From an uncultured Spirochaetaceae bacterium (lineage in GTDB: Bacteria; Spirochaetota; Spirochaetia; Sphaerochaetales; Sphaerochaetaceae), in NCBI GenBank assembly GCA_900321635.1, contig ONWV01000003.1:1-55721 (forward strand): 55,721 nt of DNA, read 5' to 3'. Below the pieces are notes generated by a model. The model ran no database searches, was not told the DNA's origin, and worked only from the letters and a program-made list of their open reading frames with translations. The translations under genes and the position numbers were made by a program. Of the stretch, positions 17,418-25,324 are shown one piece after another; the first letter of the stretch is position 1; the number at the start of each line of letters is the position of its first letter.

Positions 17418-18125
17418 TTAGAACTTGAAGGTGACTCCGACAGAAGCATTGAACTTGAAGGAGAATGCTGTGCCGACTGTCACCTTAGTTATTGATATCG
17501 ATTCAGATGTTTTATCCTTAGTATCGGTATTTGTTATAGAAGTGACGTTATTGCTTATAATCATGAAATCCGGATGGACTGTAGCTGTGATGGAAACCCT
17601 GTCAGAGAGGCTATAACCTACGTTGGCATAGAGACCTAAACCAACAGCCATTACTCCATACTCCATCTGAGAGGTTTTAGTTGTTGTTCCAGCCTTCTCT
17701 GTATCAGTAAGAACCATTTTGGCATATTCAACTGCAAGTCCGCCACCGACCTGAAGATCAAGGGCGCTGTCAAAATCAAAGTCATATGCAGCACCAGCAT
17801 GGCTTGTCTGTGCAAAGAAGAACAGCTTATCAAAACCTTCCTTGGTGATTTCCTCATCACCGATTTTGAACTTGTTATAGAATCCGACTGATGAATCACC
17901 ATAGACAAGGAATGAGTCTGAGAAGTTGTATGTGACTCCGAACTCTGCGCCAAAAGCATTTGCTCTCCAAATCTTGTCGGAGTAAACGTCCCCAGCAGAT
18001 TCAGCGGTTTTTACATTGACGAAATCATAGGAGAAACCTCCTCTGAGTGTGAATCCCTGCTTTGCGAAAACAGCTGTTGTTGTCACAGCAAGAAGGATCA
18101 TCATAATAACCAATACTTTCTTCAT
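17418..18125 (-). CDS. Small outer-membrane beta-barrel protein, copy 1
   Basis: A 235-residue secreted protein, MKKVLVIMMILLAVTTTAVFA signal peptide followed by FTLRGGFSYDF. The mature part alternates polar and hydrophobic residues in strands of about ten, and it ends FNASVGVTFKF with a terminal phenylalanine, as expected for a beta-barrel recognised by BamA. It is a close paralogue of the gene upstream at 18261-18974: signal peptide, strand pattern and C-terminus are nearly identical while the loops differ. AAGGAG precedes the ATG and a TTGACA lies at 18183-18188 with TATTTT 16 bases on. No enzyme signature; function unknown, perhaps a porin or adhesin-like barrel. Confidence 0.8.
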   Translation of the reverse strand: MKKVLVIMMILLAVTTTAVFAKQGFTLRGGFSYDFVNVKTAESAGDVYSDKIWRANAFGAEFGVTYNFSDSFLVYGDSSVGFYNKFKIGDEEITKEGFDKLFFFAQTSHAGAAYDFDFDSALDLQVGGGLAVEYAKMVLTDTEKAGTTTKTSQMEYGVMAVGLGLYANVGYSLSDRVSITATVHPDFMIISNNVTSITNTDTKDKTSESISITKVTVGTAFSFKFNASVGVTFKF

Positions 18126-18260: not shown

Positions 18261-18974
18261 TTAGAACTTGAAGGTGACTCCGACGGAAGCATTGAACTTG
18301 AAGGAGAATGCTGCGTCCAAAATCATGGTAGTTTCAGTGTCCTGATGGACGATCTTAGAATCTGGAGAGGTTACGGTTTCAATTTCGTTGTAAACATAAG
18401 AACTTACAACCATGAAATCCGGATGGACTGTAGCCGTGATGGAAACTCTGTCTGAGAGGCTGTAGCCTACGTTTGCATAGAGTCCGAAGCCAAGTGCTAG
18501 AACTCCTTGGGAAACTGTAGAAGTTGTTGTGGATTCACTGCTTTTTACAGTTGTAGCTTCCGAAGATCTTGCATACTCCACAGCAAGTCCGCCACCGACC
18601 TGAAGATCAAGTGCGCTGCCAAAGTCAAAGTCATATGCAGCACCTACATGTTCTGCGGTTCCAAGGAAGAATATTTTCTCATCGTCATCCTTCTTAACCT
18701 CTTTTCCTCCAAGCTCGAATGAGTTGTAGAAACCGAGTGTAGTGTCGGCGTATACCAGGAAAGAGTCTGAGAAGTTGTAAGTAACTCCGAACTCTGCTCC
18801 GAAAGCGTTTGCTCTCCAGTATGCATCCTTATCCAGCGGACCAAGAATATTGGGAAGCTTGACGTTGATGAAATCATAGGAGAATCCACCTCTGAGTGTG
18901 AAACCTTCTTTTGCGAAAACAGCTGTTGTTGTAACAGCAAGAAGAATCATCATGATAACCAGAACTTTCTTCAT
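18261..18974 (-). CDS. Small outer-membrane beta-barrel protein, copy 2
   Basis: A 237-residue paralogue of the downstream gene, with the same signal peptide (VLVIMMILLAVTTTAVFAKE) and the same ending, FNASVGVTFKF. Differences cluster in presumed surface loops, for example around residues 40-55 (KLPNILGPLDKDAYWRAN) and in the region before the last strands. I chose the ATG at 18974, with AAGGAG eight bases upstream, over an earlier in-frame start at 19037. The leader TTTGTAATAAGGAGTTAAAA is shared with copy 1, so the duplication included the translation signals. Confidence 0.8.
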   Translation of the reverse strand: MKKVLVIMMILLAVTTTAVFAKEGFTLRGGFSYDFINVKLPNILGPLDKDAYWRANAFGAEFGVTYNFSDSFLVYADTTLGFYNSFELGGKEVKKDDDEKIFFLGTAEHVGAAYDFDFGSALDLQVGGGLAVEYARSSEATTVKSSESTTTSTVSQGVLALGFGLYANVGYSLSDRVSITATVHPDFMVVSSYVYNEIETVTSPDSKIVHQDTETTMILDAAFSFKFNASVGVTFKF

Positions 18975-19143
18975 TTTTAACTCCTTATTACAAAGTCTGA
19001 TAATATGAGAAACCTTTTGCTGGCTTGCTGTCAACAAAAAGTTTACCCAACAATCAAAACAACAACGGATAAAAATGGTTACAAGCCCTTAATTGATAAT
19101 CAAGCTTACTGTGTAGTATTCTCTGTCTATAAGAGGAGTTTCT

Positions 19144-20370
19144 ATGTTCAAAGAAGAGGTTCTTGAGCGTTTTCTCAGATATACGGTCATAGACACGATG
19201 AGCGATGAGTCTGTGGCGGACAAAAAGCATCCGTCCACAGAAGGACAGTGGGATCTTCTGAGGCTTTTGGAAAAAGAGCTCAGGGGCATGGGCCTTACGG
19301 ATGTTGAACTTGATGGCCACGGCTATCTTCTTGCAAGAGTCCCTGCCACGGATAAGGGCCTTGATGCCATTGCCTTCAGTTCCCATGTGGACACTGCAGA
19401 TGATGTTGAAGGCAACCATGTGCATCCCGTGGTCAATTACTACAAAGGCGGGGACATTGTCCTGAAAAACGGTCTTGTCCTTGAAGTTTCAAAAAATCCG
19501 GACCTTGAGCAGTACAAGGGCTCTAAGATCATCACATCAGAGGGCGATACCCTTTTGGGATGTGATGACAAAGGCGGCATTTGCGAGATAATGACAGCTG
19601 TGTCATACCTTATGAAGCATCCTGAAATCAGACACGGAGAGATTGAGATTCTCTTCTCCCCTGACGAGGAGACTGGCTTTGGCATGGACTTCTTTGATGC
19701 AAAGAGGCTTCACAGCAAGGCCTTCTATACTGTAGACGGCGGAGAGAGGTATTCTGTTGAGCTTGAGTGCTTCAATGCCGCAACGGTCAAGGTCCATTTC
19801 TCAGGAGTCTCGTTCCATCTTGGTGCAGCACGCGGAAGAATGGTGAATGCCCTTACCATGGCAGCCTCGTTCATAAGTGCCCTTCCTCAGGCCGAAAGCC
19901 CCGAGGCCACGGACGGAAGATACGGATACTACTGTGCCCAGCAGGCAAACGGAAACGCAACAGATATGTATGTGACGTTATATCTCAGGGATTTTGACTA
20001 TGACAATCTGTTAAGAAGAATCGAGGTTCTTAAGTCACTCGGCTCGGCCATCGAGGCCCTGTACATCGGAGGCAAGGTCACAGTCGATGCCAAGATAAGC
20101 TACCTGAACATGGGTGAAGAGGCCAAAAAGAGCCCCAAGGCAGTTGATGCCATATTTGCTGCGGGAAAAGCTCTGGGACAGCCTTTGGAAAAGCAGATAA
20201 TCCGCGGAGGCACGGACGGCTCCAGAATCGCACAGATGGCGGAAATACCTTGTCCGAACCTGTATACAGGCGGCTATAATTATCACAGCCGTTATGAATG
20301 GGCGGCCCTGGATGCCATGAACGACAGTGTTGCTCTGATTATCGGAATCATCAGACAGTGGGCAGAATAA
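19144..20370 (+). CDS. pepT: Peptidase T, tripeptide aminopeptidase (EC 3.4.11.4)
   Basis: A 408-residue cytoplasmic M20B zinc peptidase that removes N-terminal residues from tripeptides. Metal and catalytic residues are visible: H81 and D83 in SSHVDTADD, bridging D142 in GCDDKGG, E175/E176 in SPDEETGFG, and the C-terminal GYNYHSRYEW. Length matches the family. GAGGAG precedes the ATG. It begins a head-to-tail run with a secreted protein, a lipoprotein and an M16C protease, suggesting a peptide-handling cluster. Confidence 0.93.
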   Translation: MFKEEVLERFLRYTVIDTMSDESVADKKHPSTEGQWDLLRLLEKELRGMGLTDVELDGHGYLLARVPATDKGLDAIAFSSHVDTADDVEGNHVHPVVNYYKGGDIVLKNGLVLEVSKNPDLEQYKGSKIITSEGDTLLGCDDKGGICEIMTAVSYLMKHPEIRHGEIEILFSPDEETGFGMDFFDAKRLHSKAFYTVDGGERYSVELECFNAATVKVHFSGVSFHLGAARGRMVNALTMAASFISALPQAESPEATDGRYGYYCAQQANGNATDMYVTLYLRDFDYDNLLRRIEVLKSLGSAIEALYIGGKVTVDAKISYLNMGEEAKKSPKAVDAIFAAGKALGQPLEKQIIRGGTDGSRIAQMAEIPCPNLYTGGYNYHSRYEWAALDAMNDSVALIIGIIRQWAE

Positions 20371-20371
20371 A

Positions 20372-21049
20372 GTGAAAAAATATTGCGCGCTAGGTGTTTT
20401 TCTGTTTCTATTTGTCCTCGCCGTCGGAGCTTCGACAACAACCTTTGTTTATAAGGGCAGCATTTCATCGACCGATATGGATTCAGATGTCAGAACAGGT
20501 CAGATGTATACAGACGGGTCTTCCAATGTCCTTGCGGTGAAAGCCGTCCATGACGGTGTGGCTGAATTTGACAAGGTTATTTCACGTGGTGAGTACTTTT
20601 CCGGAAACAGCCTGACAAGACGCGGGAGCCTTCACAGCATCGGTCTGTATTCAGGTCTGTATCACTCTTTGGCAGGTTATTCCTTATCCTGCTTCATGTA
20701 TCCGTTCTATCCTGTTGTGATGGGCGGAGTCGGCTATAATCTTGTTTCCACCTTCAAGGGTGGGTCTTTTTCAGTTTCGGACGGCCTTGCTCTGGCAGGG
20801 GTGGGAGTCTCGTTTCCCCTTGCAAGGCTTTGGAATACCAAGAATACATTGATTGAAAACGGAAAGATAACGGCATGGTGTGCAGCCGGAGTCAGCATAT
20901 CAAGCTCTGTAACGTTCGCATGCTCATATGGTTTTTCGTACAGACATAACCTGGGAACCTTCCATTGGGACCTTGGAGCTATGTGGCTTTACAGAAACGG
21001 AGGCAGTAACAGAATTTCCCCGTATCTGGGAGCCGGAGTTGATATCTGA
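20372..21049 (+). CDS. Secreted protein of unknown function, likely beta-barrel
   Basis: A 225-residue protein starting with GTG one base after the pepT stop, so it is probably translated by coupling; no good ribosome binding site is visible. It has a signal peptide (MKKYCALGVFLFLFVLAVGA), then a serine/glycine-rich sequence of alternating strands rich in Y, F and W (for example GLYSGLYHSLAGYSLSCFMY). I do not recognise a family. The pattern suggests an outer-membrane barrel, but the protein ends in GAGVDI rather than phenylalanine. The stop shares a base with the next start. Confidence 0.65.
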   Translation: MKKYCALGVFLFLFVLAVGASTTTFVYKGSISSTDMDSDVRTGQMYTDGSSNVLAVKAVHDGVAEFDKVISRGEYFSGNSLTRRGSLHSIGLYSGLYHSLAGYSLSCFMYPFYPVVMGGVGYNLVSTFKGGSFSVSDGLALAGVGVSFPLARLWNTKNTLIENGKITAWCAAGVSISSSVTFACSYGFSYRHNLGTFHWDLGAMWLYRNGGSNRISPYLGAGVDI

Positions 21050-22458
21050 TGAAGAAAAGGTCCCGTTCTGTTTCCATACTAATTATTCTTACTCTTGCTC
21101 TTGTGCTTCTTGCAGGATGCAGCTCCGTCAGGGCGGTTCTTAAGTCAAACCTTTCGGGAATACCGTACTGGTACTATGAGCCTCAGATGGGAATTGCAAA
21201 AGGCAAAGTCGGAATGATCGGCGAGGGATCTGCCTCCACTCAGAGGCAGGCAGAACTTATTGCCTACAACAACGTGATAGAGAGACTTTCCGAGAAAATT
21301 GGTTCCGAAATCGGACAAGAAGCCTATAGGGAGCTGAGTGTCCTTGGAACCATCTCCGAATATGGCCTTGTTCTTGAAGACAGCTACGTCAACACTGCAG
21401 AAGGCATGTACAATGTCTTTTTACACGTCTCAATCGACCAGTCACTTCTGGACAAGGCAACAACCGATGAGACGAAAAGACGTGAAAGCATAACCCATCA
21501 GGTGTCGGATCTTATCGTCAAGGGTGATGAGTTTGTAAGAAACGGAAATGAAATCAGGGCCGTTTCCAACTACATGAAGGCTATGGCGCTTTCCGAGGGA
21601 AAGGACTACATAGACTCGGAGTATCAGTTCAAGGAACTGTATCCTGTTGTCCTTCAGCTTCTGAAGGGCGTGACGCTTACAATAGTCTCCTCCAGAACCG
21701 ATGTTGTCTCATGTGTGGTCTCAATTACCAGAAAAGGAACGTTTGTCTCTTCATCTGTCGCTTCGGCTGAGGTTCTGGCCTCTTATCAGGCCGAGGATGT
21801 CAAAGGCGTGATCTATAACGACTCCTTTGTGTACGTAAGTGATGAGAACGGAATGTTTGTGTTCAACCCAATCAACGATTCCATTTTACGAAAGGGCGTT
21901 GTTCGCTTTGAACTGAACCTCTCAAGAGAACTCAAGGCTCTTGAAGATGCCGTCGGACCTGAGAACGTTGAAGATCTCAGAGCTTTGATAGATTCAAAGA
22001 CGATCAGCTTTGAATATGACAAGCAGTACTCGATGGGAAGCATCGCAGTTGCCGCAATAGAACATGACAATCTGGGTTATGTCACAGGAGTCAGGAACAT
22101 CACTGACTATGTGACATCAAGGCTTATATCCGATGAGGCAAAAGCGTATGCATTCTATGCAGAGCTTGATGATCAGGATGATGTGTACTACGAGTTCCTG
22201 CATTCTGACAGAACCGAGAACTGTCTGTTGGTCATGCGCATAGGAATTACAAACCACGTATCCTCAAGAAACGGATTTGAAGTTGTTGGGGCCGAGGGTA
22301 TCTTCTACCTCTTTGAAAGAGGAAAGAATGAACCTATTTACACGAGCGATGTAATCTACTCAAGCGCGTTTGCCGATACATATACAGAAGCTGCGCAGGA
22401 CGCCTTCAAGGCTCTTGCGGATATTGCATATTCATTAGTCAAGGCGGTCTATGTTTGA
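21049..22458 (+). CDS. LPP20-like lipoprotein
   Basis: A 469-residue secreted protein with a lipoprotein signal: LVLLAGC, lipidated cysteine C24. After it, residues about 55-110 (GEGSASTQRQAELIAYNNVI) match the LPP20 fold often found in spirochaete and Helicobacter lipoproteins. The rest, with several GxV-type strands and a conserved-looking C-terminal helix, has no known domain that I recognise. The ATG overlaps the previous stop by one base, and its own stop overlaps the M16C gene by eight bases, so all four genes from pepT on are coupled. Probably an outer- or inner-membrane-anchored periplasmic protein of unknown role. Confidence 0.7.
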   Translation: MKKRSRSVSILIILTLALVLLAGCSSVRAVLKSNLSGIPYWYYEPQMGIAKGKVGMIGEGSASTQRQAELIAYNNVIERLSEKIGSEIGQEAYRELSVLGTISEYGLVLEDSYVNTAEGMYNVFLHVSIDQSLLDKATTDETKRRESITHQVSDLIVKGDEFVRNGNEIRAVSNYMKAMALSEGKDYIDSEYQFKELYPVVLQLLKGVTLTIVSSRTDVVSCVVSITRKGTFVSSSVASAEVLASYQAEDVKGVIYNDSFVYVSDENGMFVFNPINDSILRKGVVRFELNLSRELKALEDAVGPENVEDLRALIDSKTISFEYDKQYSMGSIAVAAIEHDNLGYVTGVRNITDYVTSRLISDEAKAYAFYAELDDQDDVYYEFLHSDRTENCLLVMRIGITNHVSSRNGFEVVGAEGIFYLFERGKNEPIYTSDVIYSSAFADTYTEAAQDAFKALADIAYSLVKAVYV

Positions 22459-25324
22459 ACTGAAGAAGAAAGTCCCCATGTCGGAGTACGGGGGAGAGGC
22501 ATGTCTTTATGTCCATGATGGAACAGGCTTGGAAGTATTCCATATAAAGAATAAGGACACCGAAAGGTGCTGCAACTTCATGTTCAGCACACCGTCCGAG
22601 GACAGCAAGGGCGTTGCCCACATACTTGGGCATACCGTGCTGTGCGGCTCAAAACGCTTTCCGGTAAAAGATCCGTTCACACAGGTCCTTCTTTCCAGTC
22701 CTAACACATTTTTAAATGCAATAACCTTCACCGACAAGACGATGTATCCCTTCGCATCTCCTCTGAAGAAGGACTTTGACATTCTCTTTGATATCTATGC
22801 GGATGCTGTGTTCGCACCGCTTTTAAGGCGTGAATCTTTTTTGCAGGAGGGAATCAGGGCCTTTGACGGAAAGTTTGACGGTGTAGTATTCAACGAGATG
22901 TGCGGAGCCAGAAGCACCGAGGATTCTGTTGTTCAGTTCTGCAGTACACGCGATATGTTCAGGGGCACACCCTATGAATATGACTCAGGCGGAGACCCGC
23001 TTCATATTGTGGATCTTACTTATGAGGAGTACCTGGCGCGTTATGAAAAATGGTATAGCCCGTCCAACTGCAGACTGTATCTTTACGGGGATCTGGATGC
23101 AAATGAGTATCTGGACAAAATAGAGCAGAGATACCTGAAAGGACGCAAAAAAGGTGTAAAAATTATTCCGAAATCGGAAAACTATCTGATGAAACAACTA
23201 AAACCTCTGCAAATTCACGAGTCTTGCCCATCAGGTGATGCAAGAAGCGTTGTCCTTACCTGGCTCACTACGCAAGGCGATGACACTTTGGAGGTTCTTA
23301 CTGTTTCAGTTCTTGTAGACATCCTACTGGGCAATCCCGGAGCTCCTCTGTATAAGGCCATAACCGAATCCGATCTTGGCCTTGATCTTAATCCCTTAAG
23401 CGGAACGGATGTGGACAGTCCTGTACTTACATTCACTGTCGGTTTCAGCCATGCAAAGGAGAATGCAGAGAAAGAGATAGAGCGTTTTATCCTTGATCAG
23501 ATTTCCACTTATGTCAGAGACGGTCTTCCAAAGGATGCTGTTGATGCTGCCATAAAGAGGCTGGAATTCAAGGAGCAGGAGATTCCTTCAGGTGGAATTC
23601 CTTTCGGTATAGGAACTTGTCTTAAGGTTGCCCGTTCTTGGATGCGTGGAAAGGACCCCTATGAGGCTGCATCAAGTATGGAGCGCCTCAAAAAGCTTAA
23701 GGAACGCGTTTCCTCAGGCCGCTATTTTGAGACCTGGATGCAGAAGAATCTTCTTGAAAACGAAAGAAGATGCCTTCTCACTGTTGAATCATCCGATTCC
23801 TTTGATACTGATTTTCATGCCGAGCTTGAAAGAAAGTATGCCCAAAAGCATGCATCCGGTTCAGATGAGGAAAAGGACAGAGCTTCATTTGAGAAGTTTG
23901 TAAACACTCCGGACTCTCCTGAGGCCCTTGCCACAATCGACCGTATCACGCTTTCCGATCTTCCGAAGACCATTGCCCGCTATGACCAGAAAAGGACAAG
24001 GCTTCCAGGCGGTGCGCTGATGCTGGACTACAGGGTTTTCACAAGAGGAATCATCTATCTTGGCATTGCCTTTGATACAAGAAACCTCTCCCTTGAGGAG
24101 AAGAAAGTCCTGCCTCTTCTTGTTCGGGCGATGCAGATGTGCGGAACAAAGAAGCACTCTTTTTCTCAGATAAGCACCCTTGTGAAGATGCTCACAGGAA
24201 GCTTCTTCATGTACCCGAACGCAGGCTCTGATGTGCACCATAAACCTGTGAGTACGGTTGTCCTGAAGGCCAAGACACTTAGGGAGGATTTTGCCAAAGC
24301 CATGGACCTTATTGCCGAGATTCTCACAGAGTGCGACCTGTCGGATGAGCAGAGGCTCAAGGCATCTTTGGCGGATATGATTACGGAGTTTGAAAGCGGC
24401 TATACATACAGCGGAAACTCCTATGCGGTGATGAATGCCTCCAGTGTTTTCTCGGCCTCGGCATATGAGAGTGAGATAAACATGGGAACGGCTTTATGGC
24501 TGAATCTTGTGGCTCTGAAAAAGGACCTTGAAAGCGGAAAAATGAGCTATAAAGCTTTGTCAGCTATCCTTACTAAGTTATGGAAGAAGGTCTTTGTGCA
24601 GAGGTCAATGACAGTTCACATAGGCCATGATGAAGACGATGATGACCGTACGCAACTTATTAGTACGTTTACAGATAAGTTTGATGTCGGTAAGTTTGTA
24701 AGGACTGCTGACTATTATAAAACCTACAGTGCGGACAAGCCTTACGGAAGCCTTAAGAGTCCCAAAGCCTATACTGTTCCGTCAGGCCCTGCCTTCAATG
24801 CCCTGGCTGTGAAATTCAACAGGACAGATGAGAAAAAATACGTGGCCGCGCTGCTGTTGGCCTCGGTATTGTCATCGGGATATCTGTGGGATACGGTGCG
24901 CGGAAAGATGGGAGCCTACGGGGTGGAAAGCCATGTGGACGGCATGGAGAATCTGTTTGTGTTCTCGTCCTACAGGGACCCCGGAATCGAGGGGACTTAC
25001 AAGGTGTTCAGAAAGGCCCTGACACACAAGGTTGATCCCACGGAAATCGAGTATGCGGTAGTCACAATCATCGGAAAGGAGATCAGGCCTCTTTCGCCTC
25101 AGGCCAAGAGTTCGGAGGCCTTTACCCGTGCCCTGTTCGGAAACAGCACAGCCCTGTATCTGAAAAGACGACGCCTCCTTCTTCAGATGACAGAGGCTGA
25201 CCTGAAGCAGGTTGCATCAGAGATTGAAAAGAGCCTTGATTCACAGTCAAGTGCGACCGTGGTCTGCTCTCAGGATGCGGGCAGGAAACAGAAATTCATA
25301 AAGACGGTGGCACTTCCTATCTGA
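22451..25324 (+). CDS. M16C peptidase (presequence-protease type) with HxxGH zinc motif
   Basis: A 957-residue protein of the PreP/insulinase family, full length, with both duplicated halves and a helical linker. The N-terminal half has GVAHILGHTVLCGS, where the inverted zinc motif is normally HxxEH: here the catalytic glutamate at position 60 is glycine (codon GGG, 22628-22630). Zinc ligands H57 and H61 and the distal E149 (VVFNEMCG) are intact. The C-terminal half keeps the RGKMGAYGVES segment that contacts substrate. As written, the protein should bind zinc but not cleave efficiently. GGG is one substitution from GAG, so a true catalytic change and a sequencing error are both open. It overlaps the preceding lipoprotein gene. 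Confidence 0.85.
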   Translation: MFELKKKVPMSEYGGEACLYVHDGTGLEVFHIKNKDTERCCNFMFSTPSEDSKGVAHILGHTVLCGSKRFPVKDPFTQVLLSSPNTFLNAITFTDKTMYPFASPLKKDFDILFDIYADAVFAPLLRRESFLQEGIRAFDGKFDGVVFNEMCGARSTEDSVVQFCSTRDMFRGTPYEYDSGGDPLHIVDLTYEEYLARYEKWYSPSNCRLYLYGDLDANEYLDKIEQRYLKGRKKGVKIIPKSENYLMKQLKPLQIHESCPSGDARSVVLTWLTTQGDDTLEVLTVSVLVDILLGNPGAPLYKAITESDLGLDLNPLSGTDVDSPVLTFTVGFSHAKENAEKEIERFILDQISTYVRDGLPKDAVDAAIKRLEFKEQEIPSGGIPFGIGTCLKVARSWMRGKDPYEAASSMERLKKLKERVSSGRYFETWMQKNLLENERRCLLTVESSDSFDTDFHAELERKYAQKHASGSDEEKDRASFEKFVNTPDSPEALATIDRITLSDLPKTIARYDQKRTRLPGGALMLDYRVFTRGIIYLGIAFDTRNLSLEEKKVLPLLVRAMQMCGTKKHSFSQISTLVKMLTGSFFMYPNAGSDVHHKPVSTVVLKAKTLREDFAKAMDLIAEILTECDLSDEQRLKASLADMITEFESGYTYSGNSYAVMNASSVFSASAYESEINMGTALWLNLVALKKDLESGKMSYKALSAILTKLWKKVFVQRSMTVHIGHDEDDDDRTQLISTFTDKFDVGKFVRTADYYKTYSADKPYGSLKSPKAYTVPSGPAFNALAVKFNRTDEKKYVAALLLASVLSSGYLWDTVRGKMGAYGVESHVDGMENLFVFSSYRDPGIEGTYKVFRKALTHKVDPTEIEYAVVTIIGKEIRPLSPQAKSSEAFTRALFGNSTALYLKRRRLLLQMTEADLKQVASEIEKSLDSQSSATVVCSQDAGRKQKFIKTVALPI

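Follow-up and report, generated by a model that had tools for sequence, protein, structure and literature searches.

One isolated Glu-to-Gly codon in the HxxEH motif of an otherwise ordinary PreP-type peptidase gene from a spirochaete draft genome

Introduction

In peptidases of the M16 family, the water bound to zinc is activated by a base, the glutamate of the HxxEH motif (PMC12731061), and in the M16C group an R/Y pair completes the active site (PMC12731061, PMC8983764). The form of human PreP used for crystallisation is a Glu-to-Gln protein (PMC8983764), and the corresponding structure, 4l3t, carries HILQH. The window, by which is meant the whole stretch of 55,721 nucleotides analysed here, from an uncultured Spirochaetaceae bacterium, encodes a PreP-type protein in which the catalytic glutamate is replaced by glycine. 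The question is whether this protein represents a lineage of M16 pseudoproteases, with a role other than hydrolysis, or an ordinary enzyme with a single altered base.

The PreP-type gene and its active site

The gene and the parts of it that form the active site are the following:

22451-25324, + strand: gene for an M16C / PreP-type zinc metallopeptidase, intact frame, 957 aa, with an orthologue in 10 of the 10 congeners searched
22619-22633, + strand: active-site motif HILGH (H57-H61), where all relatives have the canonical HxxEH
22628-22630, + strand: codon 60, GGG (Gly), which is GAG or GAA (Glu) in 10 of 10 congeners
22895-22897, + strand: codon 149, the distal zinc-ligand Glu in FNEM, intact
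24899-24919, + strand: codons 817-823 with the R/Y pair (R817, Y823) of the active site, intact

Pfam domains Peptidase_M16, Peptidase_M16_C, M16C_assoc, and PreP_C are spread over the full length of the open reading frame, which corresponds to the architecture of the class, one polypeptide some 1,000 residues long. Of the proteins with known structures, Arabidopsis PreP1 (2fge, E 9e-104), human PreP, and falcilysin are its best relatives. Members of the M16C / PreP class cleave peptides of 10-65 residues. Judged by its sequence, the window protein is a member of this class by descent, an assignment that makes no claim on its catalytic competence as encoded. Both zinc ligands of the HxxxH pattern (H57 and H61), the distal glutamate (E149), and the C-terminal pair (R817/Y823) are in place, so that every active-site residue other than Glu60 is intact.

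The window bases 22619-22633 read cacatacttgggcat, which translates into H57 I L G60 H61, and G60 aligns with the Glu of HILEH in the solved PreP-type relatives. The catalytic base is therefore missing from the protein as assembled. The change amounts to one base, a GAG-to-GGG transition, at a site without homopolymer or repeat. A frame or alignment artefact as the source of Gly60 is ruled out, since the frame is intact and G60 falls on the column of the catalytic Glu. A sequence-only reading of this DNA had described a full-length PreP protein with H57, H61, and E149, in which HxxGH takes the place of the catalytic HxxEH through a GGG codon; the Pfam domains, the alignment with the structural relatives, the residue positions, and the bases of the motif all bear out that description.

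In a normal PreP, unfolded peptides are clamped between the two halves of the protein, and Glu60 activates the zinc-bound water that hydrolyses the clamped peptide, a mechanism known from PreP and IDE. The protein as encoded, with Gly60, is predicted to fold and to bind both zinc and peptide, while hydrolysing little or nothing. On sequence grounds, Gly60 would thus be expected to cost the protein its activity.

Gene neighbourhood

The gene lies in a conserved cluster, in which it is preceded by three genes:

19144-20370, + strand: pepT-like M20 peptidase, with which the conserved cluster opens
20372-21049, + strand: small exported protein, no Pfam match, position conserved
21049-22458, + strand: lipoprotein-like protein with an LAGC signal, no Pfam match, overlapping the PreP start by 8 bases

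The complete order is pepT, small exported protein, lipoprotein, PreP, cdaA, ybbR, acpS, truA, uracil-DNA glycosylase, priA, def, and fmt. This order, from pepT to fmt, is conserved throughout the genus and in nearby genera, and further out in the family pepT, the lipoprotein gene, and PreP still lie close together. The PreP lineage beside pepT is vertically inherited; its members, the window gene included, are ordinary cytoplasmic M16C/PreP oligopeptidases under constraint. The pairing of an M20 PepT-like peptidase with PreP suggests a function in peptide recycling, where PreP would cut longer peptides and PepT would trim tripeptides.

Two further observations concern the same region. The lipoprotein and the small exported protein of the cluster evolve fast, and neither has a family. 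On the reverse strand, 17418-18125 and 18261-19037 encode adjacent, similar proteins that resemble outer-membrane beta-barrels, with weak OMP_b-brl matches and near-identical signal peptides; this pair is a tandem duplication.

Conservation of Glu60 among relatives

A conserved glycine in related spirochaetes was the test that the sequence-only reading had set for a pseudoprotease lineage, and the relatives fail to provide it. Of 30 family relatives aligned, 29 are full-length homologues that cover column 60, and every one of them has Glu there; the 10 congeners all carry the motif as HILEH or HIIEH. The sister species, whose PreP is 94% identical to the window protein and sits in the same conserved gene cluster, keeps Glu60. 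Family-wide, a protein match is present in 138 of 139 genomes. When 393 genomes of the phylum were scanned with a degenerate DNA pattern, the motif was found with Glu in 162 genomes and with Gly, Ala, or Val only in the window's own genome. Loss of the catalytic residue is not conserved among relatives in any of these comparisons.

Matches to the motif with residues of A-, C-, or T-starting codons (Asp codons being outside the scan) came from seven genomes, none of them in an M16 protein. These seven were discarded on the basis of phmmer searches against the query; three of them read HILNHAVFKG and lie in long membrane-protein-like frames. No second genome of the same species was found in the genome and viral contig collections, where the genome contigs yielded only the sister, RGIG9374 from yak abomasum, and a cousin, RUG14151, both of them gut spirochaete metagenome genomes, and the viral contigs yielded no match.

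The claimed pseudoprotease lineage is therefore absent, while the base G itself is present in the given sequence. The sequence-only reading had named a single-base change or sequencing error as its alternative, and this fits everything seen.

Selection and age of the change

Between the window PreP and that of the sister, dS is 0.52 and dN/dS is 0.065. Polarised by the nearest outgroup, nonsynonymous and synonymous changes stand at 6:64 on the window branch versus 12:77 on the sister branch, so that the ratio is no higher on the former (Fisher p = 0.45). The share of the window branch that could have been unconstrained is at most about 2-8%, depending on the outgroup, an approximate one-sided 95% bound that comes from simple codon counts. 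An old, decaying pseudogene is rejected by the intact frame and the undiminished branch-specific selection.

Among about 220 near-invariant columns the window PreP differs at two, through E60G and through M27L, a milder odd change in the same domain. The other active-site residues show no drift, and none of the invariant columns in the family alignment holds a change in the window PreP that would compensate for E60G. Because relatives keep Glu, the other sites are intact, and selection is undiminished, E60G reads as an isolated event that is either very young or not real in the organism.

Genome quality and other M16 proteins

The source is a fragmented draft of 1.83 Mb, split into 92 contigs, with a completeness of 80.6%. 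In 12 cluster genes, which together hold about 1,300 invariant columns, the window genome and the sister show four unique departures each; therefore, the consensus is not generally poor. No further M16 protein, whether a duplicate active copy or a partner, was found in this draft of about 81% completeness. An inactive PreP would therefore have no obvious partner or backup, subject to the incompleteness of the genome.

About half of the congeners (G008, G002, and G007, for example) carry a second M16C-type protein, mostly of about 1,160 aa and with HVFEH, and no protein of this type was found in the window's genome or in that of the sister. A second PreP, 29% identical and broken by one in-frame TAG, occurs in congener G003 (C25:440-3214), and is possibly a pseudogene, an assembly error, or part of a foreign contig.

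Origin and meaning of Gly60

The gene is very probably an ordinary PreP gene with one isolated GAG-to-GGG change, which could be either an erroneous or minority base in the draft consensus or an inactivating change, whether mutation or polymorphism, that arose very recently in the sampled population. The former, where base 22629 is miscalled or represents a minority variant and the organism's enzyme is an active HILEH protein, has close to an even chance of being correct. It agrees with the restriction of Gly60 to one assembly, the full constraint on the remainder of the gene along the same branch, the fragmentation of the draft, and the fact that a genome scan inspecting very many windows is bound to meet single-base events. 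However, the genes around it carry no surplus of odd substitutions, and codon 60 offers no repetitive sequence to explain a miscall. The same clean consensus around the codon favours a genuine loss in the sampled strain, a reading whose chances are appreciable though below even. The absence of decay would fit such a change only if it were very young; the inactive PreP might then be tolerated, with PepT and other peptidases making peptide breakdown redundant, or be awaiting removal by selection. Against this stand the retention of the gene by all 10 congeners and the lack of a second M16 protein to cover for it in the draft, of which an estimated 19% is missing.

A functional pseudoprotease, in which PreP would have taken on the part of a scaffold, chaperone, or decoy that binds peptides, after the manner of MPP-alpha or the bc1 core proteins, is improbable. 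Peptide binding could persist with the zinc ligands, the distal Glu, and the R/Y pair all kept, and the whole chain is under strong purifying selection, but the selection seen on the branch simply reflects the constraint inherited from an active ancestral enzyme, and Gly is conserved in no relative. Known M16 pseudo-subunits, moreover, lose several motif residues and need an active partner (PMC11266112, PMC9291397), whereas the window protein is a single-chain enzyme in whose genome no M16 partner was found. The more specific proposal of a single-chain M16C pseudoprotease is very improbable: Gly60 would be fixed in the species, a gut spirochaete, and within the pepT-lipoprotein cluster PreP would act as a non-hydrolytic peptide binder that contains zinc. 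Least credible is an HILGH enzyme that is still active through another residue or a bound anion substituting for the catalytic base: the pocket is intact, but the base catalyst of M16 enzymes is the Glu of HxxEH (PMC12731061), its replacement by Gln gave the human PreP protein used for crystallisation (PMC8983764; 4l3t, HILQH), and no invariant column shows a compensating change.

Gly60 thus probably reflects either a mistake in the assembly or a knock-out that happened very recently, and not the rise of a new kind of non-enzymatic protein. Base 22629 would owe its state to an error or variant in the first case and to a recent mutation in the second, and both origins are ordinary. As it stands, Gly60 matters little, since it alters one base of an otherwise canonical enzyme in one draft genome. 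It recommends caution: when a draft genome shows one altered catalytic residue, the nearest relative is best consulted before a pseudoenzyme is inferred. Were Gly60 fixed in the species, the protein would be a rare instance of a single-chain M16C protein lacking the catalytic base.

Comparison with known systems

The closest known system is PreP itself (MEROPS M16C), represented by Arabidopsis PreP1 (2fge) and human PreP/PITRM1 (4l3t, 6xos). Like these, the window protein is a full-length single chain, and it shares with them the zinc ligands, the distal Glu, an equally spaced R/Y pair, and the PreP_C and M16C_assoc domains. Unlike them, it has Gly for the catalytic Glu, in this assembly only, and it is a bacterial protein in which a targeting sequence is not evident. 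Falcilysin (3s5h), the M16C oligopeptidase of Plasmodium, is also a relative by sequence, but has the canonical HILEH and is more distant than PreP. The M16B pseudopeptidases, MPP-alpha and the bc1 core proteins, resemble the window protein in having an M16 fold without a working HxxEH, the motif of MPP-alpha being HxxDR (PMC11266112). In contrast to the window protein, where the departure comes down to one base in one genome, they are separate subunits that have lost several motif residues and form a conserved lineage.
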